The translations under genes were made by a program, and so were the position numbers. Positions 30,259 through 59,635 of a stretch of DNA of 64,000 nucleotides are shown here, in pieces. The notes below the pieces were generated by a model. That model ran no database searches and was not told the DNA's origin. It saw only the letters and a list, made by a program, of their open reading frames with translations. Location of the stretch: positions 1 through 64,000 of the forward strand of contig JAHBYL010000002.1 of NCBI GenBank assembly GCA_019635955.1, in the 5' to 3' direction. Position 1 is the stretch's first letter; every line of letters starts with the position of its first letter. Source of the DNA: Parvibaculum sp. (lineage in GTDB: Bacteria; Pseudomonadota; Alphaproteobacteria; Parvibaculales; Parvibaculaceae).

Positions 30259-30353
30259 GTTCCCCCCTTTCAAGAGACAAAGAAGAACATGGTTAACGTC
30301 TAAAACATTGCTTTCAACAAGAGCCTTGTTTGGATGCTTGTTCTGCGTAAGTG

Positions 30354-33975: not shown

Positions 33976-33981
33976 GGCGCC

Positions 33982-34887: not shown

Positions 34888-34982
34888 CCGCCGCACCTCC
34901 GCCCCTGTCCAACCTGCCCCGGACCTATTGTCCTATATTAGCGGACCGGGAGCGGCTGCGGCAAAGTGACTCGGCGGTAGTG

Positions 34983-36044: not shown

Positions 36045-36077
36045 ATTCCGGTATTCTCCCGAGATGGACACTCAAGG

Positions 36078-36096: not shown

Positions 36097-36300
36097 ACAC
36101 TGCCCCCGACCGGCCCGTGAAACGCCTCGGGTCCGAAGGCGTCTCTAGATACATGGATTTTACCCCAACGGGAACAGGGGCTGTGCCGGTTACTTGCGGC
36201 GAACCGCCGCCCGTGCCAAAAACCCTTGCGTGGGGCTAAATTCCCCACTGAAATGAGTTACTTAGCTGTCACATCCTGCCACACACCGGTTGATCCCCCC

Positions 36301-38776: not shown

Positions 38777-40123
38777 GTGAGCATGTTGAACACAAGCGCA
38801 CATATCGAAGATAGCCCTGAGGACTCTGCGCCGAAAGCTTCAGCGCAGGAGCGCCGCTCTTTCCGCCAGTTCCTGCAGGAAGCACTGCTGCGAAACCGGG
38901 TGCAATTGCTCGGCGGAATTCTCTTTGCGATCGGCGTGCCCCTGATCGTCAGGTTCGGTTTCGACGATCTGCCGATCGGCCGGAACGTGATTTCGAATAC
39001 GGTTGCCGGCTCGATTGTCGCCCTCGTATTTGGCTATCTGTTCTTCCGGCGGCTGATTAATTATCCGGGCACCGAAGGCATCGCCTATTCGGTTCCCGTT
39101 TTCGCCGCAACCTTCGGCGCCGTCCTCATCCTCTTCCTGTTTCTCCGCCTGGACTACAGCCGCTATTTTTTCGGCGCGAGTTACCTTCTGTCGGTGGTCT
39201 GGTTTACTGTCATGTCGATCGTCATGGTCCGGACTCGAACCCTGAATATCGGCATTGTGCCGGGCGGCAACGCCAACCGCTTGCTCTCGCTGCGCTCTGT
39301 CCAATGGCACGAGATAAAGGCGCCCGGACCGATTACCGCGAAGGTCGACGCGATCGTCGCCGACCTGCGGCACAATTTCCCGCTCGAATGGGAACGCTGT
39401 ATTGCCGAGGCAGCCGTCTCGGGCACCCCGGTCTATGACGTGAAGCATTTGCGGGAGACCCTGACCGGACGCCTAGAGATCGAGCATCTCTCCGAGAATA
39501 CGCTCGGCTCGCTGAACCCGAACGACATGTACCTGAAGGTAAAGCAGGCAATCGACTGGCTGCTGGCTCTTGTGGTCATGATCCTGCTGATGCCCTTCTT
39601 TGCGCTCATTGCACTTGCGATAAGGCTTGAATCGCCGGGTCCGGCAATTTTCCGTCAGAAGAGAATGGGCTACCGGGGCGAAGTCTTCACGCTCTACAAG
39701 TTCAGAACCATGCGTATGGCGGAAGATACCGCGGGTGACGAGCGGGACCGCGCCATCACCAAGGCGGAAGACAGCCGGATTACACGGCTCGGACATTTCC
39801 TCAGACAGACCCGGATCGACGAGTTGCCGCAGATCATGAACATTCTGCGCGGCGAGATGAGCTGGATCGGTCCCCGCCCCGAAGCCGTTCCCCTATCCGA
39901 GTGGTACGAGAAGGAACTTCCCTTCTATCGTTACCGCCACATCGTGCGGCCGGGGATTTCAGGCTGGGCGCAGGTCATGCAGGGCCATGTCGCCTCGCCC
40001 GACGAAGTGCTGGAGAAGCTCCATTACGACTTCTACTACATCAAGCATTTCTCGCCCTGGCTCGATCTTCTGATCGTCCTGAAGACGATCAGGACGATGC
40101 TTACGGGATTTGGCGCGAAGTAG
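38777..40123 (+). CDS. Polyprenyl-phosphate sugar-1-phosphate transferase, second copy
   Basis: The 448-residue protein starts at GTG 38777; an ATG two codons on is an alternative. Four membrane helices (about 45-155) precede a short linker and the catalytic domain: QAIDWLLALVVMILLMPFF, FRQKRMGYRGEVFTLYKFRT, TRIDELPQIMNILRGEMSW and GPRPEAVPLSEWYEKELPFY. It transfers hexose-1-phosphate to undecaprenyl phosphate to start the repeat unit. The N-terminal half lacks the CoA-binding-like domain and five-helix layout of the 22854 enzyme. It heads the polysaccharide region and a likely operator precedes it. Confidence 0.93.
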   Translation: MSMLNTSAHIEDSPEDSAPKASAQERRSFRQFLQEALLRNRVQLLGGILFAIGVPLIVRFGFDDLPIGRNVISNTVAGSIVALVFGYLFFRRLINYPGTEGIAYSVPVFAATFGAVLILFLFLRLDYSRYFFGASYLLSVVWFTVMSIVMVRTRTLNIGIVPGGNANRLLSLRSVQWHEIKAPGPITAKVDAIVADLRHNFPLEWERCIAEAAVSGTPVYDVKHLRETLTGRLEIEHLSENTLGSLNPNDMYLKVKQAIDWLLALVVMILLMPFFALIALAIRLESPGPAIFRQKRMGYRGEVFTLYKFRTMRMAEDTAGDERDRAITKAEDSRITRLGHFLRQTRIDELPQIMNILRGEMSWIGPRPEAVPLSEWYEKELPFYRYRHIVRPGISGWAQVMQGHVASPDEVLEKLHYDFYYIKHFSPWLDLLIVLKTIRTMLTGFGAK

Positions 40124-40161: not shown

Positions 40162-41151
40162 TTACTCGGTGAAGAAAATTTCCCGGTCCGCCGCAGGAGA
40201 GATGAACTCGCTGTTCAACGTCCGCTCTATGCCTTCCTCGATCGGGAACGGCGCCCTGAAGCCTTCGCAATCATGGGCGGCGGAAGCGAAAGTCGTGGTC
40301 GCCGTGAATTTCCGGACGCGGATCGAACTCAGCGGAAACGTCCTGCCCGTTGCGCGCGCAGCAATGTCGAGCAGCCCGCCCGCCGCCAGGCCCGCCCAGA
40401 CCGGAAGGCGAAATCCCACCGACCCCTTGCCGAAGAGGACACCCCTCGTGAGCGCCACAAGCTCGTTCATCGAGAAATCGGGCTTGTCCACATAGTTGTA
40501 GATCTGCACGCCCGGCCCGGCATTCAGCACATGATCGAGAAAAGCGGCGACATTGCCGACATAGGCCATCGACTTCCTGTTCTCGCCCGACCCCACCATC
40601 AGGAAGGCACCGCTGTGTATCTGCCTAAGCAGATTGTAGACGTTTCCGCGATTGCCCTCGCCGAAGACAACCGTCGGCCGGATGATGACAAGACATCGCG
40701 ACGCCGGGTCCTTCGCCTGCCATGACCGCAGGATCTTTTCCGCTTCGTATTTCGTCCGGCCATATTCGTTGAACGGATTTATCGCGCCGCTTTCAGGGGT
40801 TTCGGGGTCCGTGAAACCATAGACGGCTACCGAGCTCGTGAAGACGATCTTGTTGATCCCCTTCTCTTCGGCAATCGAGCAAAGAACTTCGGTGCCCCTG
40901 ACATTCACATCCGCATAGAGACTGAGCGGACGGACATCGTCGCGATGCACGGCGGCAAGATGCACGATCGTCTCGCCGTTCAAAGCGCGGCGAAGGCCGT
41001 CGGCGTCTCGTATGTCGGCTTCGCGGGTCCGTCCGGCATGCTTGCGGCGCGTCACGATGTCGACGATTTCGAATTCCCTGCCGCTTTCGGCGAACCTGTC
41101 GCAAAGGCGCGTACCGATAAATCCCGAACCGCCGACCACGCATATGGACAT
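40162..41151 (-). CDS. NAD-dependent epimerase/dehydratase
   Basis: The 329-residue extended SDR starts MSICVVGGSGFIGTRLCDRF, with NAD-binding GGSGFIG, VFTSSVAVYGFTD and catalytic NEYGRTKYEAEKIL. It resembles the WcaG/GalE-like group of nucleotide-sugar epimerases or 4-reductases. In lipid-linked-sugar loci similar enzymes reduce or epimerise an undecaprenyl-linked sugar. The exact reaction is not decided. It follows the glycosyltransferase gene by 3 bp on the same strand and converges on the sugar-phosphate transferase gene. Confidence 0.88.
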   Translation of the reverse strand: MSICVVGGSGFIGTRLCDRFAESGREFEIVDIVTRRKHAGRTREADIRDADGLRRALNGETIVHLAAVHRDDVRPLSLYADVNVRGTEVLCSIAEEKGINKIVFTSSVAVYGFTDPETPESGAINPFNEYGRTKYEAEKILRSWQAKDPASRCLVIIRPTVVFGEGNRGNVYNLLRQIHSGAFLMVGSGENRKSMAYVGNVAAFLDHVLNAGPGVQIYNYVDKPDFSMNELVALTRGVLFGKGSVGFRLPVWAGLAAGGLLDIAARATGRTFPLSSIRVRKFTATTTFASAAHDCEGFRAPFPIEEGIERTLNSEFISPAADREIFFTE

Positions 41152-41154: not shown

Positions 41155-42141
41155 TCAAGCCCTGCCTTTTCGTACTGCCTGTGTGAGTAGCTCAACATAG
41201 GATCTGTTCACGGTTTCGGCCGTGACCGAGCGCCGCGCTTCCTCGGGGACCTCAAGCTGGCTCCACCCGTCGCAAACGGGAGTGAGACGGCACCCGAGCC
41301 GATGCAAGCCGTACCTCAAATATTCCATGTCGGAAATCAGAATCGCCATGCGGCTTGTGATCGCATCCGCAAGAGCGTGCGGGAACCCCTCGCCATAGCC
41401 GCCGGGCTGCAGGAATATCCCGCCATGCCTGAAGATGTCGGACGATGGAAGGTAGCCGACGACGTCGACCGGGATACCCGGCAGAGTTGCGGCGACTGCC
41501 GCACTATCCGTGCAGCCCACGACAATGAGTGGATGCGTCAGCTGCAAGGAGCCGAGCAGGCGGCGCAGATCCGCCGCGACGGAGGCGAGCTTGTCGTCTC
41601 TCTGCACGACGAGATAAACGCCTGGCGGTCCGCATTCCTTTTTCGTCCCGCCCGAGCCGGGCACCCATCGCAGTGCAGGACCGCGCCCGTACCGGCAAAA
41701 ATAGCGATAGTCGGCATAGTTCTGAACAGCAACCCGCTTGCGGTGGCTGACCGCGAGCAGAAGGAGAACCAGCCGTCTCAACAGAGAAGACTGCCGATGG
41801 CGGCCCAGGCCATTGAGGATCACCAGCCCACGGCGCCAGAAGCACGCCAGGGCGAACAGGTTTGTTCTCATGTTCGACGACAGGAGCGCAGGCCCGAACC
41901 CCAGCGCAATGCCGAGCATCGTCTTCAGCCGGGGTCTGCCATTCTCGAAAAGGCCATCGCTTTCCAGCGCCCAACCCTCCGCTTCAAGCGCGGCCATGAG
42001 GCTGGAGCGATAGCGCGTGTTGAGCTTCGCTTCGTCGTTAACGAACCTGATGGAACGCAATATCGAAACCCGGTACTTGCGACAATTCCAAGACACTCTG
42101 AAACGGCGTCCCCCTGCTTTCCGCAGCAACAGCACTTTCAT
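41155..42141 (-). CDS. Glycosyltransferase-like protein (GT-B fold, divergent)
   Basis: The 328-residue protein is taken from ATG 42141 (MKVLLLRKAGGRRFRVSW), though its ribosome site GGAG is only 3 nt away, so the start is uncertain. The C-terminal half is GT4-like: PLIVVGCTDSAAVAAT, VDVVGYLPSSDIFRHGGIFLQPGGYGEGFPHALADAI, of which GEGFPHALADAI is the donor-binding E-x7-E-like block. The N-terminal half shows little similarity. It should transfer a sugar in polysaccharide repeat assembly. It is divergent from the UDP-glucuronate epimerase gene and followed by the SDR gene. Confidence 0.7.
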   Translation of the reverse strand: MKVLLLRKAGGRRFRVSWNCRKYRVSILRSIRFVNDEAKLNTRYRSSLMAALEAEGWALESDGLFENGRPRLKTMLGIALGFGPALLSSNMRTNLFALACFWRRGLVILNGLGRHRQSSLLRRLVLLLLAVSHRKRVAVQNYADYRYFCRYGRGPALRWVPGSGGTKKECGPPGVYLVVQRDDKLASVAADLRRLLGSLQLTHPLIVVGCTDSAAVAATLPGIPVDVVGYLPSSDIFRHGGIFLQPGGYGEGFPHALADAITSRMAILISDMEYLRYGLHRLGCRLTPVCDGWSQLEVPEEARRSVTAETVNRSYVELLTQAVRKGRA

Positions 42142-42259
42142 ACACTCCGGCACGACATTACAATTATAAAGTTGTATCGAAGATTGGCTTTCCCGCGCCT
42201 CCCTTCGGAGCGGTCTGGTTTTCGGCCGGTCATAACCGGCACTCGTCAGGATCATCCTT

Positions 42260-43273
42260 ATGCAGAAAGTACTGGTCACAGGCTCGGCGGGCTTTATCGG
42301 CTATCACCTGAGTCACCGTCTCCTGTCGATGGGCATTGAGGTTATCGGCCTCGACGCCATGACCGATTATTACGACGTGGAACTGAAGCGCCGACGCCAT
42401 GCCTTGCTCCGGAATTCCGCAAGTTTCAGCGCCATCGAGGCCCGCCTTGAGGAACCTGGTCTGCTGAAGCGCCTGCTCGAGACGGAACGGCCATCGGTCG
42501 TCGTGCACCTCGCTGCTCAGGCAGGCGTGCGCTATTCGATCGATGCGCCCCGCTCTTATGTCGAATCGAACCTTTCCGGCACGTTCGAGCTTCTGGAAGC
42601 CGCGCGGGCGGTCCCGCCCGCCCATCTGCTCTTTGCATCGACCTCGAGCGTGTATGGCGCGAATACGCGCATGCCCTATGTCGAGACCGACAAGGCCGAT
42701 CTGCAGATGTCGTTCTATGCCGCCACAAAGAAGGCGAATGAGGCAATGGCGCATAGCTATGCTCATCTCTACGGCCTGCCCTGCACCATGTTCCGCTTCT
42801 TCACCGTCTACGGCCCCTGGGGCCGGCCCGACATGGCGCTCTTCAAGTTCACCCGCGCCATTCTCGATGACGAGCCCATCGACATCTACAATCACGGCGA
42901 CATGAAGCGCGATTTCACCTATGTGACGGATCTTGTTGAAGCGATCGTGAAACTGATGCCGGTCGTTCCCGTGCTTCCGCAAACGGCGGATGAAATCGAG
43001 CCGGGCGACAGCCTCTCGCCCGTCGCGCCATTCCGCATCGTCAATATTGGCAATGGCCAGCCCGTCCAGCTCATGGCCTTCGTGGAAGCGATCGAGGAAG
43101 CGACGGGGCGCAAGGCGAAGAAGAATTTTCTCGACATGCAGCCCGGCGACGTGCCCGCGACCTGGGCGGACAACACGCTGCTGCAACGCCTGACGGGCTA
43201 TCGCCCGCAAACCACGCTGAAGGACGGCGTCACCGCTTTTGTGGACTGGTACCGCGATTACTACCGCGTTTGA
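42260..43273 (+). CDS. UDP-glucuronate 4-epimerase (LpsL-like)
   Basis: The 337-residue extended SDR starts MQKVLVTGSAGFIGYHLSHR. TGSAGFIG binds NAD; AAQAGVRYSIDAPRSYVESN and SSVYGANTRMPYVETD are LpsL-type blocks, and YAATKKANEAMAH carries Tyr-x3-Lys. MFRFFTVYGPWGRPDMALF is shared with UDP-glucuronate epimerases. It should convert UDP-glucuronate (from the 37219 enzyme) to UDP-galacturonate, giving the polymer an acidic sugar. It is a single-gene unit, convergent with the sulfotransferase gene at 43261. Confidence 0.92.
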   Translation: MQKVLVTGSAGFIGYHLSHRLLSMGIEVIGLDAMTDYYDVELKRRRHALLRNSASFSAIEARLEEPGLLKRLLETERPSVVVHLAAQAGVRYSIDAPRSYVESNLSGTFELLEAARAVPPAHLLFASTSSVYGANTRMPYVETDKADLQMSFYAATKKANEAMAHSYAHLYGLPCTMFRFFTVYGPWGRPDMALFKFTRAILDDEPIDIYNHGDMKRDFTYVTDLVEAIVKLMPVVPVLPQTADEIEPGDSLSPVAPFRIVNIGNGQPVQLMAFVEAIEEATGRKAKKNFLDMQPGDVPATWADNTLLQRLTGYRPQTTLKDGVTAFVDWYRDYYRV

Positions 43274-44079
43274 CCGGCCTTGAAGGCCCGGAAGAATGCA
43301 CAGTCTTCGGCGTGAATGCGCTCAAGCAGGGCGCGCTCATCGGGCGATGCATGCAGCCGGGTCAGATCGCCGCCATCGAACACTTTCTTGAGCCCCATCG
43401 CCTTGCCCGCCTCGACAAGCCTGTCGAGCCCGGCGCGGCGCATGGCAAGCGCCAGCGCGGTGGCGGTCTTCGCCAGAAACCGGAAGCGAGGCACCTTGCC
43501 TTCGCCGAACTTCTCGCGCCGCTCCTCCGGCAGCGGTACGCGGCCGGCACCGAGGAAGTCGAACACGGCCGCAATTGCGCCTTCGGGGTCGGTGGCGATC
43601 CGGTCATTGTCCAGCAGCAGCACATTCTCGCTGCCGAAATCGTCCTGCCAGGCCTTGCAATGGAGGGCATAGCGCCCGGACTCGACAATCTCCGGATTGA
43701 GATCGATTGCCTGCTGGAGATCGTCCGGGCTGCGCCCCTTGGCGACCTCGTGCCGGAAAAGGGAGAAGGTGCGGGCGGCCGGTTCGCGCACGAGAATGAC
43801 GATCCTGAGATCGGGGAAAAGCTCCTTCAGCCTGCGGCGGGCAGCGGCGCAGTGAAAATAGGTCGGCCCGACTTCGCCGAGAAGCTGGCCGGGCGCCGCG
43901 TCCGGAAAGTAGCGCGCGAAATAGGCGGCCGCCGGGTCCTCATGCGTGCGCTGGTCGAAGAAGAAGGTCTCCTTGGTGAACTTCGGCAACAAAAGCCCAG
44001 GATGAACCCTGAGCGCCTTGTCGAGCCAGGAACTGCCCGTCCGCTGCGGGCCGACAACGACGAAGGATAGACGGTTCAT
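43261..44079 (-). CDS. PAPS-dependent sulfotransferase (1 of 4)
   Basis: The 272-residue protein starts MNRLSFVVVGPQRTGSSWLD at 44079, with GAGAGGG upstream; an ATG at 44094 overlaps the glycosyltransferase stop and is an alternative. VGPQRTGSSWLDKAL is the 5'-phosphosulfate-binding loop of sulfotransferases, and ILVREPAARTFSLFRHEV the 3'-phosphate-binding block. The protein should transfer sulfate from PAPS to a sugar hydroxyl. It is the last gene of the minus-strand operon beginning at 51380. Its sequence differs clearly from the other three, suggesting a different acceptor position. Confidence 0.88.
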   Translation of the reverse strand: MNRLSFVVVGPQRTGSSWLDKALRVHPGLLLPKFTKETFFFDQRTHEDPAAAYFARYFPDAAPGQLLGEVGPTYFHCAAARRRLKELFPDLRIVILVREPAARTFSLFRHEVAKGRSPDDLQQAIDLNPEIVESGRYALHCKAWQDDFGSENVLLLDNDRIATDPEGAIAAVFDFLGAGRVPLPEERREKFGEGKVPRFRFLAKTATALALAMRRAGLDRLVEAGKAMGLKKVFDGGDLTRLHASPDERALLERIHAEDCAFFRAFKAGQTR

Positions 44080-44090
44080 GGCCGGCCCTC

Positions 44091-45284
44091 TCATGTTTCT
44101 GCGCCGCTCCTTGCGGCCGCATCGCGCAATGCGCCGAGAAAGGCCTTGCGGCGGCTTGTCAGTTCATCCATCGCATAGTCCTTCGCGGCATTCCAGTTTC
44201 GCTCCGCCTGCGCCCGCTTCCATTCCGTATCGTCGCCGTACCGCAGCAGCAGCCGCGCAAGCCCCTGTGCATCTCCCGGCTCGCACAGCATATTCTCGTC
44301 GAGGAGTTCGGGAATGCCCGCGCAACGCGACGCGATGGCAGGGCACCCCCGGCTCATGGCCTCGATCAGGGCGCGCGGCAGACCTTCCTTGAGGCTCGGC
44401 TGAAGATAGATGTCGATGCCGTCAAGCCAGTTCATGACCGGCGCGCCGGAGGGAAGCGAGCCCTCGAGTACAACCTGCCCCCCGAGCCCCAGCTCATCCG
44501 CCATCTTGCGCCAGGGCGCTGCATCGCCGCCGCCCAGCACGCGAAATTCGAACGGCGGAAGCCTGTCCTTCACCTGCGAAAACGCCGCGAGCGCGATGTG
44601 AACGCCCTTCACCTGCGTTTTCAGGCTGCCGATCAGGCCGAATACGACAGGACTGCGAGATTCCGCGATACGGCGAAGACGGCGCGCCAGAACATCCGGC
44701 TCGGGCGCCGCGATCTCGACATTCGAGATCGACGCGGTAACGGCGCCGGGGCTCGGATATCGCCGCTGCAGAAAATGCTGCGTGACATACCAGACGAAGC
44801 GCGCGCGCCGCGCTGCCCGCCTCACCCGCCAGGCCATGATGGGCGCATAAAGCTTGCCCGCGAAGCGCCCGTGATTCCACAAGCCGTCCCACGGACAGCC
44901 CGTCAGCATGATCGCGCAGGGGCGGCCAAGCTCGCGCGCCACGCGAATGGCAAGGAGACCGTTCTCGCTCGGAAGCCGCACCACCACGGCATCGCCTTGC
45001 GCGATAGCCTCGGCCATCTGCCGCCGGATGCGCCGCCGCCCGAGCGCCTGCCCCTTGAGCGAGGACAGATTGTCGAGCAGCCGGAAGTCGACACCCTCGC
45101 GGCTGCTCAGGTTGAACCGGTCGACACGCGCGCCCGGCGGCAGCGTGCCGCGCCGCGCCACGACCGTGACGGTATCGAACACATCGAGGAACCGCTGCCA
45201 GTAGGATTGCGGAAACTGGTCCTGCGCATAGACGCCATCGTCGCGCAGATAGAACCGGCTATCGAGAACAAAGGTCAGGCGCAA
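44091..45284 (-). CDS. Family 4 glycosyltransferase
   Basis: The 397-residue GT-B protein starts MRLTFVLDSRFYLRDDGVY. The C-terminal donor domain has FGLIGSLKTQVKGVHIALAA, FRVLGGGDAAPWRKMADELG, and YLQPSLKEGLPRALIEAMSRG with the E-x7-E motif. It transfers a sugar from a nucleotide donor to the lipid-linked repeat unit in the cytoplasm. It lies between two sulfotransferase genes, 13 bp after the one at 45298. Confidence 0.92.
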   Translation of the reverse strand: MRLTFVLDSRFYLRDDGVYAQDQFPQSYWQRFLDVFDTVTVVARRGTLPPGARVDRFNLSSREGVDFRLLDNLSSLKGQALGRRRIRRQMAEAIAQGDAVVVRLPSENGLLAIRVARELGRPCAIMLTGCPWDGLWNHGRFAGKLYAPIMAWRVRRAARRARFVWYVTQHFLQRRYPSPGAVTASISNVEIAAPEPDVLARRLRRIAESRSPVVFGLIGSLKTQVKGVHIALAAFSQVKDRLPPFEFRVLGGGDAAPWRKMADELGLGGQVVLEGSLPSGAPVMNWLDGIDIYLQPSLKEGLPRALIEAMSRGCPAIASRCAGIPELLDENMLCEPGDAQGLARLLLRYGDDTEWKRAQAERNWNAAKDYAMDELTSRRKAFLGALRDAAARSGAET

Positions 45285-45297
45285 GGTCTACCCCGTC

Positions 45298-46191
45298 TCA
45301 TGGCTTGAGTGACGCAGTCGAAGATGGCCGCAACCGCTCGAGATGCGAATGCAGGAGCGCAAGATCGGCCTCGAAGGCGCCGGCGATGCGCTTCTTGTCT
45401 GCCTCGGGCATCTCGGTTTTCTCCTGCTCGCGCTCATTGAAGCGCGCGAGGCCCCAGCCGCGATGCAGCCCGATGGACCGCTTCAACCGCACCCCCAGTC
45501 TGATCATCGCCTGAAGCGCCAGGCTTCGGCGGCCCCGGGCCTGATTGGCCACTGGAAAGCTCTGCCTTCCATCGTCAGGAACACCGAGAAAGCCAAGGAC
45601 CCGCAGGTATTCCTGCCGCGGATTCTCCTGCATGCTCTCGAGCGAGATATGCAATATCCGGCTGGGCTCGACCCGCCCAAGCAACCGGCCCACCTGCTCG
45701 CCAAGAGAGCATGCCGCCAGATATTGCAGAAAGGCTGCTTCCTTGCATTTTGGCGGAATGGATTTCCCGGTTTGGCGCGCCGGCTGCAATTCCCAGGCGC
45801 GCATGAAATCGGGCTCGTCCTCGTTCATTTTCCTGAGATTGTGATGATGGAGGGATATCGCCATCTCCACCGGATCGCGGCTCATGATGATGAATTTGGC
45901 GTCAGGGTTGTAGGCAAGGATGTTCGCCAGCGCATCTCGGGAATAGAGATACCAGGTCGATGCCTCTCCCACCGCGATATGCGACGGCCTTACCTCGCTA
46001 AACAGCCTTTCATATTCTTGCCGCGACTTCACATTCCGGTTGCCGAGATCGGTGCTGAAGAAATGCGGCTCCTTGACCGGCGAAACATATACGGCCGGAT
46101 TCTCGGACAGCCACTGGGCGAGCGACGTCGTCCCGCATTTCGGGGCGCCCAGAATGAAGAAGTTCGCCCTCTTATCCACTTCATCGCGCAA
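45298..46191 (-). CDS. PAPS-dependent sulfotransferase (2 of 4)
   Basis: The 297-residue protein has the 5'-phosphosulfate loop FILGAPKCGTTSLAQWLSEN at the start, KEPHFFSTDLGNR after it, and the 3'-phosphate site FIIMSRDPVEMAISLHHHN. These are features of the carbohydrate sulfotransferase family (heparan-sulfate-like). The start overlaps the end of the GT2 gene by 11 bp. It is close in style to the copy at 47080 (APKCGTTSL, same PHFF block), which suggests duplication. Confidence 0.9.
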   Translation of the reverse strand: MRDEVDKRANFFILGAPKCGTTSLAQWLSENPAVYVSPVKEPHFFSTDLGNRNVKSRQEYERLFSEVRPSHIAVGEASTWYLYSRDALANILAYNPDAKFIIMSRDPVEMAISLHHHNLRKMNEDEPDFMRAWELQPARQTGKSIPPKCKEAAFLQYLAACSLGEQVGRLLGRVEPSRILHISLESMQENPRQEYLRVLGFLGVPDDGRQSFPVANQARGRRSLALQAMIRLGVRLKRSIGLHRGWGLARFNEREQEKTEMPEADKKRIAGAFEADLALLHSHLERLRPSSTASLKP

Positions 46192-47083
46192 GGGTCAGCC
46201 TCACAAATCGCCGGACGGAGGAAGGAACAATCCATGGCCGCAATGCGAGGAGGAATGTCTTCAGTCCCGTGGGTTTCAGATGCCACAGTTCACGGAATAT
46301 CCATGGAACGGCTGCCAGGCGCCCGTCATATGCAGCCTTGCGGCTCAAAATTCCCGCCACGAAACGCGCGCGGCCCTTCGGGGTCATCAAAGTCTTTCGC
46401 TTTTCATACCAACTCTGCGTATTGGCAAATCCACCGGGCCTGCTCAGCCCCTCACCGGGCTTCAAATGCCTCTCACATATGACCGCTCGGCTCACGACAA
46501 GCGGCACAACGGTGGTGGCACGCATCAACCAATCCCAGTCTTCATGCCGCTCGAGGGTTTCATCCAGCGGAAACTCGCCGAACACACGCGCAGGCGCCAT
46601 CAAGGTCGAGGTATGAAGCCCCCCTGCACCACCAAAGAGAATCTGGTCGACCGGCGTACCGTCGGGCATAATTTTCCGCGGGCGCTTCGAGAGGAATTTT
46701 TCGTTCGAAAAGACCGCCTCTACTCCCGCAATCACGGCCTCTGCCTTGCCCGACTTGTCCAGCGCCTCGAACTGTGCCGCCAGTTTTTTCGGCAGCCAGA
46801 TATCGTCGTCATCGAGCAGCGCGATCCAGTTGCCTTTCGCTTGCCTTATGCCGAAATTTCTGGTGGCCGAAGCGTTCTTTCTCCGCGGCGCTTCGAGAAA
46901 CCTTACCGATGGCTCGCTCAACTCGCCGATCAAGCGTGCCTTTTCCGCATCCGGACCGTCATTGACCACGATCACCTCAAGGGGGTGCAGGGTCTGCGAC
47001 AAGGCGGAGCGGATAGCGCGGATTACTTCCTCGTGCCGCTGATAGGTCGGTATCACGACCGATATGGAGCGTTCATTGATCAT
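46181..47083 (-). CDS. Family 2 glycosyltransferase
   Basis: The 300-residue protein starts MINERSISVVIPTYQRHEEV at 47083, where its ATG overlaps the upstream sulfotransferase stop (ATGA); an ATG 21 nt 5' is less likely. It has the GT-A fold with VVIPTYQRHEEV, EVIVVNDGPD and the DXD-type WIALLDDDDIWLP. ETLERHEDWDWLMRATTV is the likely catalytic base region. It should add a sugar to the lipid-linked repeat. No membrane helix is seen. Confidence 0.93.
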   Translation of the reverse strand: MINERSISVVIPTYQRHEEVIRAIRSALSQTLHPLEVIVVNDGPDAEKARLIGELSEPSVRFLEAPRRKNASATRNFGIRQAKGNWIALLDDDDIWLPKKLAAQFEALDKSGKAEAVIAGVEAVFSNEKFLSKRPRKIMPDGTPVDQILFGGAGGLHTSTLMAPARVFGEFPLDETLERHEDWDWLMRATTVVPLVVSRAVICERHLKPGEGLSRPGGFANTQSWYEKRKTLMTPKGRARFVAGILSRKAAYDGRLAAVPWIFRELWHLKPTGLKTFLLALRPWIVPSSVRRFVRLTLAR

Positions 47084-47979
47084 GGGCGGAGGGCCGGATT
47101 CCATCGGCGCAGGTCACGGCCGGTCAGCTCCTGCAGAAGAGCGATATCCGTTTCGAATTCACGATAGAGCTCCATCTTGAACTCATCCGAAATTTCCTTG
47201 TTCGTCTTTTCGACCCGTCCATGCCGCTTGAGAAGCGCATATGCTCCGATGCCCGGAAGGCCGAGACGCCGCCGCAAGCCCCCGAAAACCCTGAACAGGC
47301 GATTCAACATCGGAAAGCGATGCGTCTTTGCCTTGTTCAGAACCGGAAACTCTGTGCGCCCGTCATCTTTGACACCGAGAAATTCCAGCACGCTCAGATA
47401 GGCCTTTCGCGGATCGGCAATCATGTCGCCGAGGTAAAGCCAAAAGACGTTCTCCCGGCCGGCAACATCGAGAAGATTGCGAAGCGCCGCACCAAGCATC
47501 GCCTGATCCTTGTAGAGGAGCGACGAAGGGCTTTTGCAGGATGGAGGAATATGGCGACCTTGGCGCCGCTCATCCTGAAGCTTCCAGGCGGCCTCGAAAT
47601 CTTCCACATTTTCCCGCGCGAGAAACAGGCATTCGGAATGCCATGAACGTACCAGCTCGACGGGATTTCTCAACATGACAACGAATTTGGGCGCGCTTGT
47701 CGCTTCGACAATCCGGGAGATGGATTCCTTCGACGTGAAGTAACTGGTGGAACCATCGAGCAGTATCTTTTTGCTCGCAGGGCAACCCTCGTACAGGCTG
47801 AGATAAGAGGCAAAGCTGCCGCAATTATTCAGCTCTGCATTGAAAAAATGCGGCTCCTTCTTCGCGGGAAGAAAGATATCCGGATGTTCAGACAACCAGT
47901 TTGCAAGCGAGGTCGTTCCGCATTTCGGGGCGCCGGCAAGAAAAGTATTAGGTATCGGAACCGGTTTCGTGACGGACAT
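47080..47979 (-). CDS. PAPS-dependent sulfotransferase (3 of 4)
   Basis: The 299-residue protein shows the PAPS-binding loop FLAGAPKCGTTSLANWLSEH, PAKKEPHFFNAELNN and the 3'-phosphate site FVVMLRNPVELVRSWHSE. It pairs with the copy at 45298 by sequence style. It starts 3 bp after the flippase stop, so the two are tightly linked. As a soluble protein it would act on the cytoplasmic nucleotide sugar or on the lipid-linked unit before export. Confidence 0.9.
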   Translation of the reverse strand: MSVTKPVPIPNTFLAGAPKCGTTSLANWLSEHPDIFLPAKKEPHFFNAELNNCGSFASYLSLYEGCPASKKILLDGSTSYFTSKESISRIVEATSAPKFVVMLRNPVELVRSWHSECLFLARENVEDFEAAWKLQDERRQGRHIPPSCKSPSSLLYKDQAMLGAALRNLLDVAGRENVFWLYLGDMIADPRKAYLSVLEFLGVKDDGRTEFPVLNKAKTHRFPMLNRLFRVFGGLRRRLGLPGIGAYALLKRHGRVEKTNKEISDEFKMELYREFETDIALLQELTGRDLRRWNPALRP

Positions 47980-47982
47980 GAC

Positions 47983-49308
47983 TCACCTTCCGAAAGCTGA
48001 AGGTTCGATATTGATACGGGAGATGACCGCAAAGCGCATCATGACATTCCAGATCACCAGGGATACCGCCGTCGCGATGGCAGCTCCTGTCATACCGTAA
48101 GACGGCACGAGAACGAAGTTCAGCAGAATGTTGACGGAGGCCGACACAAGGACCGACACAAGCGTGTCGCGCTCATGCCCCGTCATGTTCAACAGGAAGC
48201 CGACCGATCCCATGGCTGCATTGACCAGCTGCCCGGCAGCAAGGATGGCCAATGCCAGACTTCCCTCCCGATAGGCCTCCCCGAAGACGAAGCCAAGAAT
48301 GGGAGCGCCGAACAGAACAAAGACGATAACCGGCGGCAAGGCGAGGAGGAGAATGATACGCGCGCTGAGCGTGACCAGCCTCTGCAACCGTTTCATGTCT
48401 CCTTGCCGGTAGAGCCGCGCGAAATGCGGCTGCAGCACAAGGTTCATGGCCTGCAGGCCGAAAATCACGAGCAGTCCGATCTGGTAGACGACCTTGTAGA
48501 TCCCGACTTCTTCATCGCTGCGAAAAATGCCGATTGTGATTATGTCTGCCTGGTTGTTGATCAGCTGCAGTCCGGCAATCAGGGCGAGCGGTATCATCGC
48601 TCCGATCCACTCGCGCGGCATCTGCCGCGACGTGCGTGTCTGCCGCACTTCTGCAGGACTGAACCTGTAAAGCAGCACTGCCCCTAAGAAAAACGACACG
48701 ACCGCCGCCAGCACATACCAGCCCATCACCTTTTGCGGCGTGCCGATCGGCCCGAAAGTGCCGGCGGCGGCGAGCACAAGCAGAACGAGAAGAAGCGCCA
48801 GCGGGCGAATGATGCTTTCCGGCAATTGGCCGAACACGACCATCCGAAGGCCTCGCAGGCTCGCCGATCTGAGATTCCCCAATGCAATGAACGGCACCAG
48901 CACAGCGCCGACGACAAGCGTCTCAAGTCTCGGCGAACTGTCCAGCAGCAGATATGCGACGCCAAGGCCGGCGAGACACACAGCGGAAAGCGCAAGGACC
49001 ACGAGGGACGCCCAGCGCCACAAGCCGCGCATCAGCGGCCAGTCGGCATCTGCCTGCGCCTTGGCAGTTTCACGGACCACGAGCTGCGGCAATCCGACCT
49101 GCACCGGCAGCGCGACGATGGTCAGAACGGCCAGGGCGAACGAATAGACGCCATAGCCTGCTGGACCGAGCAGACGGGCCAGCGCGACCGATACGCCGAA
49201 GGCGAGACCCACGCTGGCGATCTTGACCGCCATGCTTCCCACGCCGCCGCGCAGCAGCAGGGCACGCAATCCATCGCCTTCGAACAGACGCCGGAGATGC
49301 CTAGCCAA
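47983..49308 (-). CDS. Wzx-type polysaccharide flippase
   Basis: The 441-residue protein is a MATE/MOP-superfamily membrane protein with about 12-14 helices and no signal peptide. The N-terminal SMAVKIASVGLAFGVSVALA and GPAGYGVYSFALAVLTIVAL blocks are typical of Wzx/RfbX. It is predicted to flip the undecaprenyl-linked repeat across the inner membrane. Its start overlaps the end of the polymerase gene by 8 bp. This gene and the polymerase in one operon with sulfotransferases show that the sulfated unit is Wzx/Wzy-handled. Confidence 0.92.
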   Translation of the reverse strand: MARHLRRLFEGDGLRALLLRGGVGSMAVKIASVGLAFGVSVALARLLGPAGYGVYSFALAVLTIVALPVQVGLPQLVVRETAKAQADADWPLMRGLWRWASLVVLALSAVCLAGLGVAYLLLDSSPRLETLVVGAVLVPFIALGNLRSASLRGLRMVVFGQLPESIIRPLALLLVLLVLAAAGTFGPIGTPQKVMGWYVLAAVVSFFLGAVLLYRFSPAEVRQTRTSRQMPREWIGAMIPLALIAGLQLINNQADIITIGIFRSDEEVGIYKVVYQIGLLVIFGLQAMNLVLQPHFARLYRQGDMKRLQRLVTLSARIILLLALPPVIVFVLFGAPILGFVFGEAYREGSLALAILAAGQLVNAAMGSVGFLLNMTGHERDTLVSVLVSASVNILLNFVLVPSYGMTGAAIATAVSLVIWNVMMRFAVISRINIEPSAFGR

Positions 49309-50497
49309 ACCGGGTCCCCATCACGGGTGTCCGCGCCACTGCCGGCCGCTTGACGACCCTGTGCGCAGCGCGCCCCCCGTAGGACAGGACCAGCGCCAGG
49401 AATATCCAGAGGAAGGTCGTGCGGAGCCCCTGATGCGTGACCTGATAAAGCGCCGGACCGACTGCAATGGCCAGAACATGGAGCGGTACGCGGCGGAACA
49501 CGGCGATCACCAGAACGAGGACGAGAAGGATCCCGACGATACCGTATGAGAAAACAATCGTGCCGAAGGACGAGTGAAGCTCGATCGTCGTGCCGAAGCG
49601 CCACAGACCCTTCTCGCCCGCGCCGAAGAGCAGGTAGTAGTCGTAGTCGAAGATACGGTCGTATCCCCGGAAACCTTCCATGTTCACTTTGTTGTCAAAT
49701 CTCGCCGAGCGCTGTATCGCCGCCTGGAACCGCGTGACCATGAAGTCGCCCAGCACGAGACCGAATACGGCGACAAGGGCAAAGGCGCCCAGCAGAAGCT
49801 GGGTCACCGTCTTGAAAGGGTTGCCCCTGAGGATTTTCAGGGCAGCGCCGCCGAGAACGGCAAGAAGCGCCGCGATGGCACCGAACGACACCGAGCCCAT
49901 GACGCCGAAGATGCAGCACACCGCGACGACAAGCCCCGAGATACCGAGCATCTCGCGCCTGTCCGCAATCACGGCAAAGGACGCAAGCAGCAGGACCGAG
50001 AAATATCCGAGCTGGTTCGGATTGTTGAACCCGCCGAGCTGGCGCATGCGCTCCGCATCATATCCCGTCACGACGAGGAGGAAGAGCACCGACGCGCAAA
50101 GCATGAGAGCGAGCACCAGCAGGCGCCGGAAGCCTTCGTGGTCCTGGGCCGCCTTGATGGTGAAAGCGGTGAAGACAAGGAAGTTGAAGGTGTAGAAAAG
50201 GGGCGCGAACGCGATACCCGCATCCTCATGAATAATCCCGTTGACCAGCGAAACGGTCCAGACCCAGACGACGAATGCGAGATAGGCAAGCACGGCGAAT
50301 TTGGCGTCAGGAGAGATAGCGACGCGGGAGCCTTGCCTGCTCATCGTGAAGAATGTCACGACAATCCACAGCACCATCAGAAAATCACCGGGCTGCGGCA
50401 GCCCGCTCGGGAACACATAGACGGGCGCAAGCGCGATCGCCGCGATCAGGAGCAGTGCGTACGGTCCGATTTTCGGGATCCTGATTCTGATCCTCAT
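49301..50497 (-). CDS. Wzy-like O-antigen polymerase/ligase family membrane protein
   Basis: The 398-residue protein has 10-12 predicted helices and starts MRIRIRIPKIGPYALLLIAA. The features of the Wzy/WaaL fold are a GGFNNPNQLGYFSVLLLAS block and a late, large periplasmic loop with SARFDNKVNMEGFRGYD and FGAGEKGLWRF, then LHSSFGTIVFSYGIVGIL. Sequence is too variable in this family to tell polymerase from ligase. It lies directly upstream of the flippase and 4 bp after a sulfotransferase gene, which favours polymerase. Confidence 0.82.
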   Translation of the reverse strand: MRIRIRIPKIGPYALLLIAAIALAPVYVFPSGLPQPGDFLMVLWIVVTFFTMSRQGSRVAISPDAKFAVLAYLAFVVWVWTVSLVNGIIHEDAGIAFAPLFYTFNFLVFTAFTIKAAQDHEGFRRLLVLALMLCASVLFLLVVTGYDAERMRQLGGFNNPNQLGYFSVLLLASFAVIADRREMLGISGLVVAVCCIFGVMGSVSFGAIAALLAVLGGAALKILRGNPFKTVTQLLLGAFALVAVFGLVLGDFMVTRFQAAIQRSARFDNKVNMEGFRGYDRIFDYDYYLLFGAGEKGLWRFGTTIELHSSFGTIVFSYGIVGILLVLVLVIAVFRRVPLHVLAIAVGPALYQVTHQGLRTTFLWIFLALVLSYGGRAAHRVVKRPAVARTPVMGTRFG

Positions 50498-50501
50498 GAC
50501 G

Positions 50502-51380
50502 TCACCGGCCCTCCCAAAGAGGAATCGGCCGCCCGAGATAGGCCTCCACGGCCGTCCGGTCCACTTCGAAATCCCGGGAAAACTTCTCCGTCTCTGCAGG
50601 CGTCACGCCACTGCCGCCTTCCTTCTTGAGAAAGACGCTGCGGTCGATGCCGATACGGCGCAACCAATCCGTCAGCCATTCCAGGTCATGGTCGCGCAGC
50701 TTCCGTCGGACCTTCTTTGCAAATCGCGTCAGGCCGGGCGAGCGCGCCGCTCCTTTCGTTTCGCGGACACGGCCCTCCGGCCGTGCGGCCAGCATCGCGG
50801 CGGCATCGACATTCAGAAATCCTGCAAGCTCCGTCAGGAATTTTTCCTGCGCGGCATCGCTCGAAAAAATTTCCTCATATATGGCGACGAATATGCGGTC
50901 GCGGCGGAAATTCCGGGCGACCGCCGCAAGGCGTTCCGAGTAGCGGCTGTATTCGATCAGATGAGGATGCGCTTCGACCACCTCGGTCAGGCTTCCATCG
51001 GCCACCGCATTCTCGAGCAGCATCCGGTAATGCGAAACCATGCGCCGGAAAGGATCGCGCAGAAGAATGATGATGCCCACATCCGGATTGTAGGCCGCGA
51101 TCCGCGCCAGCGTTTCGTCATGGCCGATATAGTTCGTCGATATTTCGCCGGTGGCACCGCCTTCGCCGCGGGGCTGGAACAGACCCTCATACCAGTCCCG
51201 GCCGCGATCATGGTAACGGCTGAAGAAGAACACCTCTTTCTGATGTTCCGGCATGACGATCTGCGGATGGTTCCGCAGCAGCAGGTCGAGCCATGTCGTG
51301 CCGCATTTCGGCGGGCCGATGCCCAGGAAATTGACCACCGGCAAGCGATCCTGAGTAGGCCTGATCGCTTCTTGATGCAT
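50502..51380 (-). CDS. PAPS-dependent sulfotransferase (4 of 4)
   Basis: The 292-residue protein is the first gene of the minus-strand polysaccharide operon. FLGIGPPKCGTTWLDLLLRN is the 5'-phosphosulfate loop and IIILLRDPFRRMVSHYRML the 3'-phosphate site. HQKEVFFFSRYHDRGRDWYE is a substrate-binding block. The start ATG lies at the edge of a 300-bp divergent region shared with the ligase gene. It is more divergent from copies 2 and 3, so a different acceptor hydroxyl is likely. Confidence 0.9.
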   Translation of the reverse strand: MHQEAIRPTQDRLPVVNFLGIGPPKCGTTWLDLLLRNHPQIVMPEHQKEVFFFSRYHDRGRDWYEGLFQPRGEGGATGEISTNYIGHDETLARIAAYNPDVGIIILLRDPFRRMVSHYRMLLENAVADGSLTEVVEAHPHLIEYSRYSERLAAVARNFRRDRIFVAIYEEIFSSDAAQEKFLTELAGFLNVDAAAMLAARPEGRVRETKGAARSPGLTRFAKKVRRKLRDHDLEWLTDWLRRIGIDRSVFLKKEGGSGVTPAETEKFSRDFEVDRTAVEAYLGRPIPLWEGR

Positions 51381-51680: not shown

Positions 51681-53138
51681 ATGTCCGATAAATTGACGGA
51701 CCGTCTGGCCGGCCTGCTGTTTGCCATCCTGATATTGATCCTCGCGCTGGCGCCCCTGCCGCTTGGCAGCAACAGGCCGCTCCCCGCCAACCTTATCGGC
51801 GTGGCAACCGGACTGCTGGTTGCGATCGGGGCGGCGCTTTCAATCTTCAACGAAAGGCGTGCACCGTTTCTGCCGGTACCGGGCCTCCGGCTCCCCGCGA
51901 TCCTGTTTGGCGTGACCATTCTTTGGGCATTCATCCAATGGATGCCGCTGCCGTTTGCCGGTCTCTCCCATCCCTTGTGGGACGAGGCATCTTCGGCGCT
52001 AGGCGAGCCACTGGCGCATCGCATCTCGCTCGACCCGGGGCGAACCCTGAGCGCCCTCGTCAATCTTCTGTCATATGCAGCGGTTTTCATGGCTGCGCTC
52101 TGGATGACGCGAAAGACGGAGCGCGCCCAGGCGGCGCGGCTCTGGATTGTCGCCATCGGCGCAGTCTATGCAGCCTATGGCGTAATCAATCTTGCCGCAG
52201 GCCCCGGCTGGCTGCCCGGGCAGATCATCGCGAGCCACGGGAAATCCCTGGTTTCGACTTTCGTGAACAGGAACAACTTCGCGACCTTTGCTGGCTTGTG
52301 CCTGTTATGCGCCTTCTCGGTTTTGCTGGACCGCGTCTGGCACATCCTCTCGACCTCACGCCCGGCTCGGCAGAAGGCAGCGCTCGTCATCGAATCTCTG
52401 GTGCTCCAATCGGGAATTGCGACGGCGAGCACACTGGTGCTTGCCTTGGCCCTCTTCTTGACCGCATCGCGGGGCGGCATCGCCGCGACCCTGTGTGCCT
52501 TGATGCTGCTGACATATCTGCGAATGCGCGGATCGGCTCAGGGAGGACCAGGCCGGTTCATCATGCCGCTCTTGCTGGTCATTGCCGTGAGCATCGGCTT
52601 CATTGCCGGTGGCGACCGTTTGATGACGCGAATTGAGCGAGGCGGCGTCTGGATCACCGAGGACATGAGCCGCTACCGGGTGTTCACGACAACGGCGGAG
52701 GCAATCGCCTCCGCGCCGCTCACCGGCACGGGTCTCGGAACATATGAAGGTGCAATCGAGCTCTATCGTTCAAATGACACAAGGCTCTTCACGATCTGGC
52801 AGCGGGCGCACAATTCCTATCTGGAAAGCACGATGGAGCTCGGCATACCGGCCGCTCTCTCGTTGCACGTAGCGATCCTGCTGCTGGCGGGAATTTGTCT
52901 TCGCGGATTGCGTGTCCGCCGGCGCGGGCGTTCCTTCCCGGCTCTGGGGCTCGCCGCCACGCTTCTGGTGGGATTGCACGCCCTTGTGGACTTCAGCCTG
53001 CAGATCCCCGCCGTGGCGCTGACCTATGCCTTCATCATGGGGTTCGCCGTCGCGCAGTCCGCGCCGGGCACTTCCCGGCGGCAGCAAAAGGAAGGCGCCG
53101 CTTCAACGCCTGCGCCGCCGCGGGAGCTCCTCGCCTGA
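51681..53138 (+). CDS. O-antigen ligase / Wzy_C-domain membrane protein
   Basis: The 485-residue protein starts MSDKLTDRLAGLLFAILILIL with AGGAC upstream. It has about 12 helices and the Wzy_C core: FVNRNNFATFAGLCLLCAF, LFLTASRGGIAATLCALML, and a periplasmic loop with RAHNSYLESTMELGIPAAL in which His is the ligase-type catalytic residue. This pattern is closer to O-antigen ligases than the 49301 protein. It may polymerise or attach a second glycan. Its 3' end overlaps by 36 bp the end of the convergent gene. Confidence 0.88.
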   Translation: MSDKLTDRLAGLLFAILILILALAPLPLGSNRPLPANLIGVATGLLVAIGAALSIFNERRAPFLPVPGLRLPAILFGVTILWAFIQWMPLPFAGLSHPLWDEASSALGEPLAHRISLDPGRTLSALVNLLSYAAVFMAALWMTRKTERAQAARLWIVAIGAVYAAYGVINLAAGPGWLPGQIIASHGKSLVSTFVNRNNFATFAGLCLLCAFSVLLDRVWHILSTSRPARQKAALVIESLVLQSGIATASTLVLALALFLTASRGGIAATLCALMLLTYLRMRGSAQGGPGRFIMPLLLVIAVSIGFIAGGDRLMTRIERGGVWITEDMSRYRVFTTTAEAIASAPLTGTGLGTYEGAIELYRSNDTRLFTIWQRAHNSYLESTMELGIPAALSLHVAILLLAGICLRGLRVRRRGRSFPALGLAATLLVGLHALVDFSLQIPAVALTYAFIMGFAVAQSAPGTSRRQQKEGAASTPAPPRELLA

Positions 53139-53900
53139 CAGCATCAGATGGTCGAACTGCTCCAGTAACGCGGGCTCCTGCCCGAGTTGCGCGCGGAAAG
53201 CAGCTCGCGCCGGCAACCCCGCCCGGAGATAGACATCGACAAGATGCCGCCTCAACTCACGTTGCTGCCAGAACTCCGAAACATGCCTTACCCCGTATGC
53301 GCGAAACTCTTGGGGCATCGCCTCCCAATGCAGCATCGCGATCCGGAATTGAACGAGCAATGCCGAGGCTCGGTTGGGCGTCGTCAGGCGCGAAAGACGA
53401 AGCGCCGGGAGTACCTCGCTGGCCGGCTTTCCGAGTTCCAGTCCGGCGTCTGCATAGAGAGCCCAGGCGAACCCGTTGGATGGCGCCGCCGCAACGGTTC
53501 GGCGCAGATACTCATATGCCTCCGCGCGCAGACAGTCGGCATCGCAGGATTGGCCGCCCTCACCTGCGGGACCGGCCGCGCGGCCAGAAATCGCCGCAAG
53601 CCGTCTCGAAATCAACGCGCGCGTGATCAAAAGGGACGCGTCGTTGGGCGCGATTTCGACAGCCCTGTTATAAATGTCCCTCGACAGCCAGAGCCGCTCC
53701 GGAGCCAGCTCTCTCCCGGACGAAAGGCCCTCACGCACATCGCCCAGGGAAAGCACGGCAATCTGCGCCCGGACGCGGGGCGATGCGACGGCAATCAGCA
53801 CAAGTGCGAGCCCCAGGACGGCAAGATATCCGCCCCAGTGGCCGTTCCTTGAAGTTCCGGAGCGGGAGCTTCTCTCCCGCATACCGCCGCTAATTGACAT
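53103..53900 (-). CDS. Membrane-anchored helical protein following wzc (function unknown)
   Basis: From ATG 53900 the protein has 265 residues. This start overlaps the wzc stop by 11 bp; an ATG at 53882 is an alternative. A single membrane helix (GGYLAVLGLALVLIAVASPR, residues about 23-42) is followed by a helical region that resembles tetratricopeptide-like pairs (IYNRAVEIAPNDASLLITRALI, FAWALYADAGLELGKPAS). A Cys pair (QSCDADCLRAEAY) lies in the middle. The tail is basic (LPRRRRR). Such genes often follow Wzc in alphaproteobacterial exopolysaccharide operons; no activity is known to me. Confidence 0.65.
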   Translation of the reverse strand: MSISGGMRERSSRSGTSRNGHWGGYLAVLGLALVLIAVASPRVRAQIAVLSLGDVREGLSSGRELAPERLWLSRDIYNRAVEIAPNDASLLITRALISRRLAAISGRAAGPAGEGGQSCDADCLRAEAYEYLRRTVAAAPSNGFAWALYADAGLELGKPASEVLPALRLSRLTTPNRASALLVQFRIAMLHWEAMPQEFRAYGVRHVSEFWQQRELRRHLVDVYLRAGLPARAAFRAQLGQEPALLEQFDHLMLSGEELPRRRRR

Positions 53901-57673: not shown

Positions 57674-57830
57674 CAATCTTTCCCCTGACAATTCTGCATT
57701 TAAGCAATTTGGAAACGGACGCTGCTATCTGGAGGGGGCAGCAACTCTCACTTCCGGCAAACGGATGGCGCTCTCAAGGCCACCGAAATACCGCCGGAAC
57801 CCTGCCGTCCCGGCGGTATTCAGGTACTGA

Positions 57831-59450: not shown

Positions 59451-59635
59451 CGGAAATCGCCCTCTTGGAAATGCCCTGTCAAAAGTGCCGCCGGCCGCGC
59501 CGGATAGCCATGCGGCGGAACAGCACAATCGATATCGGTCCGCGCAGCACGCCGGAACCTGCCGGATTATTTATCACCAATCATGGCAGTATTTCAGCGG
59601 AAAGCCCGGTACCCACACAAAATTACGCGACCTGG

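Follow-up and report, generated by a model that had tools for sequence, protein, structure and literature searches.

A compact operon with four sulfotransferases in a Parvibaculum genome points to a sulfated Wzx/Wzy-dependent polysaccharide

A 64,000-nucleotide stretch of DNA from the alphaproteobacterium Parvibaculum sp. (GenBank assembly GCA_019635955.1, contig JAHBYL010000002.1, positions 1 to 64,000; here called the window) contains, at 43261–51380, a run of eight minus-strand open reading frames (ORFs) encoding four sulfotransferases (ST1–ST4), one GT4 and one GT2 glycosyltransferase, a Wzx flippase and a probable Wzy polymerase. We propose, with a probability of about three in four, that this locus makes a sulfated Wzx/Wzy-dependent exopolysaccharide (EPS) or capsule, the four sulfotransferases acting in the cytosol before the repeat unit is flipped. 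The window lies on contig C112 of its source genome, a 3.26 Mb draft that is 86.8% complete. Sulfated polysaccharide loci with sulfotransferases are of a known kind; what sets this one apart is the compact four-sulfotransferase operon, with a cassette within it that is shared by two bacterial classes.

All eight ORFs lie where an earlier reading of the sequence (the original prediction) had placed them. In order of transcription they are ST4 (50502–51380), the probable polymerase Wzy1 (49301–50497), Wzx (47983–49308; PF01943, 63 bits), ST3 (47080–47979), GT2 (46181–47104; PF00535, 90 bits), ST2 (45298–46191), GT4 (44091–45284; PF13692, 87 bits) and ST1 (43261–44094). The distances between successive genes are 4, −8, 3, −25, −11, 13 and −4 bp, confirming the predicted tight spacing with gaps and overlaps between −25 and +13 bp, and the domain scores bear out the interleaving of two glycosyltransferases and a flippase with the sulfotransferases. 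The GC content at third codon positions (GC3) of the eight genes, read on the minus strand, is 0.62–0.80.

All four sulfotransferases exceed the curated cut-offs of both PF13469 (Sulfotransfer_3, 27 bits) and PF00685 (Sulfotransfer_1, 22 bits), scoring 55 and 51 bits for ST1, 51 and 45 for ST2, 34 and 32 for ST3, and 52 and 37 for ST4, respectively. In an alignment of 123 sulfotransferases, the loop for 3'-phosphoadenosine 5'-phosphosulfate (PAPS), which is the 5'-phosphosulfate-binding site with its Lys or Arg, the Arg and Ser of the 3'-phosphate site and the catalytic-position Glu are kept in all four; the Glu occurs in 114 of the 123 rows. The loop reads GAPKCGTT in ST2 and ST3, GPPKCGTT in ST4 and GPQRTGSS in ST1, a Lys-Glu pair followed by aromatics appears as KEPHFF (ST2, ST3), KEVFFF (ST4) and KETFFF (ST1), and the Arg/Ser motif as LRDP....S in ST4, LRNP....S in ST3, SRDP....S in ST2 and VREP....S in ST1. 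By sequence, the closest solved relative of ST1 and ST4 is heparan sulfate (HS) 3-O-sulfotransferase 3, matched best by ST1 (1t8t, E 6e-16), whose Glu faces the Glu of GAEPHFF in a pairwise alignment with that enzyme. ST2 and ST3 are closest to 3rnl, named 'Sulfotransferase' with its substrate unstated. The available text of PMC11625862 (this and the other published sources are cited here from parts of their text) describes Glu as the base in HS3ST1 and NST1, with Glu and His both known as bases, and the Lys/Arg of the 5'-phosphosulfate site and Ser of the 3'-phosphate site as conserved in sulfotransferases. XssA of the cyanobacterial synechan locus was matched by all four in a local blastp search (27–30% identity, E 4e-10 to 6e-19; 30% and 6e-19 for ST4, 27% and 6e-18 for ST1), and its companion XssE was matched by none of them at E 0.01 and was reached by a broad sulfotransferase profile. 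Together, membership of the PAPS-dependent family, the retained residues and the homology to XssA and HS enzymes support the predicted assignment of all four as PAPS-type, carbohydrate-sulfotransferase-like enzymes.

The four enzymes are also distinct, as had been predicted. Their pairwise identities are 25–29%, rising to 38% for ST2 and ST3, and in a tree of 114 sulfotransferases well-supported branches force four label changes for the window proteins. ST2 falls in a clade of 10 with proteins from Rhodobacteraceae, Halomonas and Salinisphaera (support 100/100; 51–56% identity) and ST3 is sister to a Salinisphaera protein in the same gene position (100/99; 46%). ST4 pairs with a sulfotransferase from G174, a distantly related genome within the class (99/87), and ST1 groups with those of loci L133, L106 and L066 (100/89); a wider clade of seven joins ST1 and ST4 (100/97), these two lying on long branches in a tree whose bootstrap had not settled. 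The loci of ST1's three relatives and of ST4's partner also hold a sulfotransferase from the ST2/ST3 side of the tree. These four places, with identities of 25–38%, rule out recent tandem duplication of a single gene, and the intact motifs rule out degenerate copies. Given that the enzymes come from different parts of the family tree, they probably modify different acceptor positions.

No transmembrane-like segment was found in the four sulfotransferases by a hydropathy scan, their highest 19-residue values being 0.72–1.37 compared with 2.07–2.97 in Wza, Wzx and Wzy1. Because PAPS is found in the cytosol and Wzy works in the periplasm, after flipping, sulfation would most likely modify the lipid-linked unit, or precursors of that unit, which supports the suggested timing before polymerisation. 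In the mechanism we envisage, a priming transferase would load the first sugar phosphate onto undecaprenyl phosphate, and GT2, GT4 and possibly a third glycosyltransferase, GTx, would lengthen the unit to about four sugars. With PAPS as donor and the Glu of KExxFF as base, the four cytosolic sulfotransferases would sulfate the unit. Wzx would carry it across the membrane in sulfated form, a Wzy would polymerise it, and Wzc and Wza, perhaps with a BBP2 barrel, would export the polymer. Gene content, motifs, homology, conserved gene order and the presence of PAPS genes in the genome are observed; the acceptor, the order of the steps, the number of sulfates and export as EPS are our inferences. 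Animal HS sulfotransferases are Golgi enzymes that act on polymer chains; the 3-O- and N-sulfotransferases among them share the PAPS loop, the Glu base and the Arg and Ser with the window proteins and are among their best solved relatives, whereas the window enzymes would be cytosolic and act before polymerisation. The likeness to animal glycosaminoglycans (GAGs) drawn in the original prediction holds for the enzyme family and its residues; for the polymer it is a prediction.

The product of Wzy1 matched no family in Pfam, NCBIfam or PHROGs and nothing in a plasmid search at E 0.01, and a crude hydropathy scan counted six transmembrane-like segments in it, compared with 11 each in Wzx and in a nearby Wzy_C/O-antigen-ligase family protein (51681–53138, plus strand; PF04932, 62 bits). 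A search for homologues at E 1e-6 found one in a single genome among 384 others of the class, and a search at E 0.001 found one in a single genome among the 16 behind the named loci described below. The latter homologue, in a Halomonas metagenome-assembled genome (MAG), is 25–27% identical. Its gene has a Wza-Wzc pair on one side and a GT4 gene on the other, and its product matches Wzy_C below threshold (E 0.01), which favours a Wzy identity for Wzy1. In G174 the homologue lies about 3 kb from a GT4 gene and a 44% homologue of the window's sugar epimerase-type gene EPIa, with which that GT4 gene is adjacent; relatives of Wzy1 and EPIa share one contig there with this GT4 gene, and relatives of ST2/ST3, ST4 and Wzx another (L134, L151). 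The polymerase predicted within the operon is probable from the context of its homologues. PF04932 covers ligases as well as polymerases, and the Wzy_C protein may act as a ligase or as a further polymerase; a 29% homologue adjoins Wzc in Thalassospira (L085).

We also examined the context of related sulfotransferases elsewhere. A profile scan of named contigs, built from a three-sequence alignment, returned at least 532 relatives, and the best 79 loci, around relatives of ST2/ST3, were analysed with flanks of up to 10 kb, so that more distant genes are missed; 34 loci, each of 20 kb or more, have full 10 kb flanks, and 16 are shorter than 10 kb. The profiles used on these loci miss divergent sulfotransferases and glycosyltransferases, and some Wzx assignments are weak. 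The titles of these best 79 of at least 532 come from Proteobacteria, Bacteroidetes, Planctomycetes and others. A glycosyltransferase was found in 62 of them, Wzx in 51 and one or the other in 70; in 36 a sulfotransferase lies within 300 bp of Wzx. At least two sulfotransferases occur in 22 of the 79, three in one and four in none. For the 34 full-flank loci the corresponding figures are Wzx in 28 and a glycosyltransferase in 30, with one sulfotransferase in 20, two in 13 and three in one.

One of these loci is that of the gammaproteobacterium Salinisphaera halophila YIM 95161 (L057), in which Wzx-ST3-GT2-ST2 are found in identical order at 56, 46, 50 and 52% identity; it differs from the window in having two detected sulfotransferases and other neighbouring genes. 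In Halomonas MAG T1Sed10_69 (L055), Wzx, GT2 and ST2 are kept (59, 57 and 54%) and two other ORFs, one methyltransferase-like, take the position of ST3. ST3 and ST2 lie on either side of GT2 and are found again together with GT2 and Wzx, so they would most likely sulfate the residue added by GT2 or its neighbour. The segment 46001–48000, covering ST3 and GT2, has the lowest GC content (0.564) among the window's 32 steps of 2 kb; this would fit an exchanged cassette and proves nothing.

Several points weigh against the sulfated EPS or capsule that we favour. A promoter and terminator scan was uninformative (2 sites compared with 2.7 in shuffled sequences), so co-transcription rests on spacing. 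The polymerase is a weak link, as is the identity of GTx, and the Wzy_C protein leaves room for an O-antigen. XssA falls outside the clades of all four window enzymes in the tree. PAPS supply and removal of the by-product PAP are both provided for elsewhere in the genome, by an APS kinase (239 bits, in a 714-residue frame) and CysQ (295 bits, over its cut-off); both are common, however, with matches in 11 of 14 and 14 of 14 control genomes, respectively (CysQ over its cut-off in two), and lie outside the locus, so that they are permissive only. Finally, XssE is dispensable for synechan EPS accumulation (PMC8205485), and four genes therefore need not mean four sulfates.

One alternative for the product, which we consider improbable, is a sulfated O-antigen, in which the Wzy_C protein, as ligase, would attach the same repeat unit to lipid A-core. 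PF04932 is indeed named O-antigen ligase, and the available text of PMC11641403 proposes that a sulfotransferase near Wzx in Vibrio sp. KMM 8419 serves O-antigen sulfation. Set against this, a Wzc scoring above an EPS-transport cut-off and a Wza lie 2.5–8 kb away, and relatives of both the Wzy_C protein (L085) and Wzy1 (L148) adjoin Wzc elsewhere. EPS rather than O-antigen is the likely product, favoured by Wzc and Wza; of the original prediction, the four PAPS-type enzymes in a Wzx/Wzy operon are supported. It is very unlikely that the four enzymes act on other acceptors, such as a lipid, a Nod-factor-like oligosaccharide or a secondary metabolite, and are placed here by chance. ST3 does have a weak NoeE match (E 3e-5, 23 bits against a cut-off of 500) and one to the polyketide-synthase chain 4gox (E 2e-4), and some bacterial sulfotransferases use glycolipids (PMC11625862); yet the genes overlap and interleave with those for glycosyltransferases and Wzx, one or other of which accompanies the sulfotransferase in 70 of the best 79 loci, no search having been aimed at nod genes themselves.

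Within the sulfated-polysaccharide model, there is perhaps one chance in a few that only one or two of the enzymes are active, the rest being redundant or relics, and that the unit carries one or two sulfates. Such redundancy would fit the deletion of XssE in Synechocystis, which barely altered EPS accumulation (PMC8205485), and the 38% identity of ST2 and ST3. The catalytic motifs are nevertheless intact in all four, and the tree sets each among distant relatives of its own. More speculatively, the locus may reflect a modular sulfation code in which each sulfotransferase clade fixes one acceptor position, cassettes such as Wzx-ST3-GT2-ST2 are swapped between Alpha- and Gammaproteobacteria, and the repeat unit, with roughly one sulfate per sugar, acquires all of its sulfate while bound to the lipid carrier, ahead of flipping by the matching Wzx; we regard this as less likely than not. 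Animals sulfate polymer chains; if the code is real, bacteria would reach a heparin-like charge density by the opposite route.

Further polysaccharide genes flank the operon. At lower window coordinates, on the plus strand, are GalU (36226–37182; TIGR01099, 349 bits, above cut-off), a nucleotide-sugar dehydrogenase resembling UDP-glucose 6-dehydrogenase (UGD; 37219–38535; PF03721, 232 bits; TIGR03026, 467 bits, above cut-off; 566 bits to TuaD, under the cut-off of 700) and a priming polyprenyl-phosphate glycosylphosphotransferase (38777–40123; PF02397, 209 bits; TIGR03025, 296.1 bits against a cut-off of 295.6). On the minus strand follow EPIa, an NDP-sugar epimerase/dehydratase of the short-chain dehydrogenase/reductase type (40162–41151; PF01370, 121 bits), and GTx, a possible third, GT4-like glycosyltransferase (41155–42279; start perhaps at a later ATG; GC3 0.70). 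The evidence for GTx is a faint PF00534 match (E 0.15) and 30% identity over 73 residues (E 7e-4) to the G174 GT4 that adjoins the EPIa homologue; it matched nothing in PHROGs, or in the PDB at E up to 1. Beyond the operon, all on the minus strand, are a Wzc-type co-polymerase with a tyrosine-kinase-type domain (53890–56163; PF02706, 54 bits; TIGR01005, 422 bits, above cut-off), a BBP2 outer-membrane beta-barrel (56390–57691; PF10082, 427 bits) and a Wza-type export protein (58803–59528; PF02563, 80 bits; SLBB, 45 bits). The synechan-type parts, namely a priming transferase, glycosyltransferases, Wzx, a polysaccharide co-polymerase (PCP) and an outer-membrane polysaccharide export protein (OPX), are therefore present. 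GTx, EPIa, the Wzy_C protein, Wzc, BBP2 and Wza come in addition to the genes named in the original prediction.

The original prediction placed uronic acid in the sulfated units, with genes for UDP-glucuronate and UDP-galacturonate flanking the operon. A UGD-type and an epimerase-type gene (42260–43273, plus strand; PF01370, 182 bits) are present. For the second, the best NCBIfam match is galE at 147 bits, under the cut-off of 262, and the best PDB match is 5u4q (E 8e-116), named dTDP-glucose 4,6-dehydratase, so that UDP-galacturonate is a tentative product. The next PDB match, 6zl6 (E 8e-47), is named an epimerase domain protein and belongs to the 6zl6/6zla set, which we take to be UDP-glucuronate 4-epimerase. 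A 63% homologue of this gene adjoins UGD and a sulfotransferase in L059, and a Rhodobacteraceae MAG carries UGD, epimerase, sulfotransferase and a weak Wzx match in succession. Among the best 79 of the at least 532 loci, however, homologues above 200 bits of UGD occur in two and of the epimerase in five within the flanks of up to 10 kb, and a genome of the same genus, G011, keeps GalU, UGD, the priming transferase and Wzx with a sulfotransferase of another kind. The sulfated units may contain uronic acid, but this is not tied to the sulfotransferases. A GDP-mannose 4,6-dehydratase (34983–36071) and a ManC-type gene (31039–32532) in the window would make mannose or a deoxyhexose in the polymer as plausible.

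We next consider how unusual the operon is. In a survey of 289 genomes of the class, the source genome included, a profile of seven sulfotransferases with up to eight candidates scored per genome gave matches in 55 at E 1e-8; by the listed positions, more than two within 10 kb occur in the source genome and in none of the 288 others. Within the genus, 7 of 27 genomes (the source included) match the sulfotransferase profile A1 and four together occur only in the source, which rules out conservation of the locus in this form across the genus. A PF13469 protein is present in all 27, the best-scoring mostly in frames of about 600–970 residues, and this profile alone under-counts, ST3 of the source genome going unlisted at E 0.001. 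By hand count, 7 of the 23 other GalU-bearing genomes of the genus carry a sulfotransferase on the contig of the GalU orthologue and no more than 21 kb away from it. These are G011, G007, G013, G018, G001 and G024, over the PF13469 cut-off, and G019, by profile A1 only; that of G010 is excluded as under the cut-off. A looser tendency in the genus for sulfotransferases to lie near GalU is therefore likely. In G011, GalU, UGD, the priming transferase and Wzx are 84, 67, 62 and 40% identical to those of the window, and after Wzx, near the contig end, comes a different PF13469 sulfotransferase (74 bits). The two genomes thus have the type of locus in common and differ in its sulfotransferases, a pattern that may resemble serotype-like loci. 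Four sulfotransferases packed this densely are unusual; the locus is otherwise a variant of known sulfated polysaccharide loci.

A comparison with such loci, as the original prediction had suggested, found that synechan and the loci of Actinoplanes, Vibrio and Cobetia resemble it in kind. Synechan (xss, on pSYSM of Synechocystis PCC 6803) is likewise a Wzx/Wzy system with a PCP and with sulfotransferases among its glycosyltransferases; according to the available text of PMC8205485 it has two sulfotransferases and eight glycosyltransferases, with two sulfates measured per eight sugars, and deletion of XssA abolished bloom formation and suppressed EPS. The window has four sulfotransferases, two or three glycosyltransferases and a priming transferase, and XssE is of another subfamily than its enzymes. 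Counting as for synechan, we would predict some four sugars per unit, with four sulfates at most; the dispensability of XssE weakens this predicted ratio. No XssQ/R/S-like regulator turned up among the window ORFs scanned, no search having been aimed at one. The wps-1 locus of the actinomycete Actinoplanes missouriensis has Wzx, Wzy, Wzz and two sulfotransferases of different families, one of HS type, and a sulfated polymer is suggested there (PMC13390465, available text). Vibrio sp. KMM 8419 and Cobetia marina KMM 1449 also carry sulfotransferases in their capsule loci; these differ in using an ABC-transporter route, in holding PAPS genes and in their size of about 80 and 70 genes, and their sulfated structures are established by NMR. 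The Vibrio locus has three sulfotransferases, one of them assigned to O-antigen (PMC11641403, available text).

In the parts of PMC8205485 and PMC13390465 available, bacterial sulfated polysaccharides are said to come only from cyanobacteria; the Vibrio and Cobetia papers show them outside that group, a putative sulfated GAG-like cluster is described in Pontiella, and sulfotransferase, glycosyltransferase and export genes are reported in Shark Bay mat MAGs, including two alphaproteobacterial orders. The titles and abstract openings of the literature matches listed name no four-sulfotransferase Wzx/Wzy operon. The window locus and the frequent placement of sulfotransferases of its type beside Wzx across several phyla suggest that sulfated Wzx/Wzy polymers extend far outside the cyanobacteria. 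The operon also offers four related, distinct and apparently soluble putative carbohydrate sulfotransferases for studies of regiospecificity and for making GAG-like polymers.

Other multi-sulfotransferase regions and further window genes deserve mention. In G024 (C1:1842996–1886522; L143, L153, L154), a stretch of 43.5 kb holds four profile-detected sulfotransferases alongside large GT2 proteins. A Wza match lies there too, and no Wzx was found; the stretch is looser than the window operon, yet is a second multi-sulfotransferase region in the genus. G008 (C6:15436–66994) has a similarly sparse stretch of several PF13469 genes, the two measuring about 43–51 kb. Within the window, a second priming transferase of WbaP type (22770–24419; TIGR03022, above cut-off), 84% identical in G011, may belong to a second polysaccharide pathway or provide an alternative start in the region. 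A LuxI-type autoinducer synthase adjoins a LuxR-type regulator at 28706–30618, a few kb from the polysaccharide genes, and the polymer may be under quorum control. From 31039 to 36071 the ManC gene, which has an isomerase domain, a metallo-beta-lactamase-fold protein, a methyltransferase and the GDP-mannose 4,6-dehydratase follow in a row. A transposase (DUF772/DDE) lies at 3492–4934 and ATP-grasp genes at 8463–9995 and 17899–19248.

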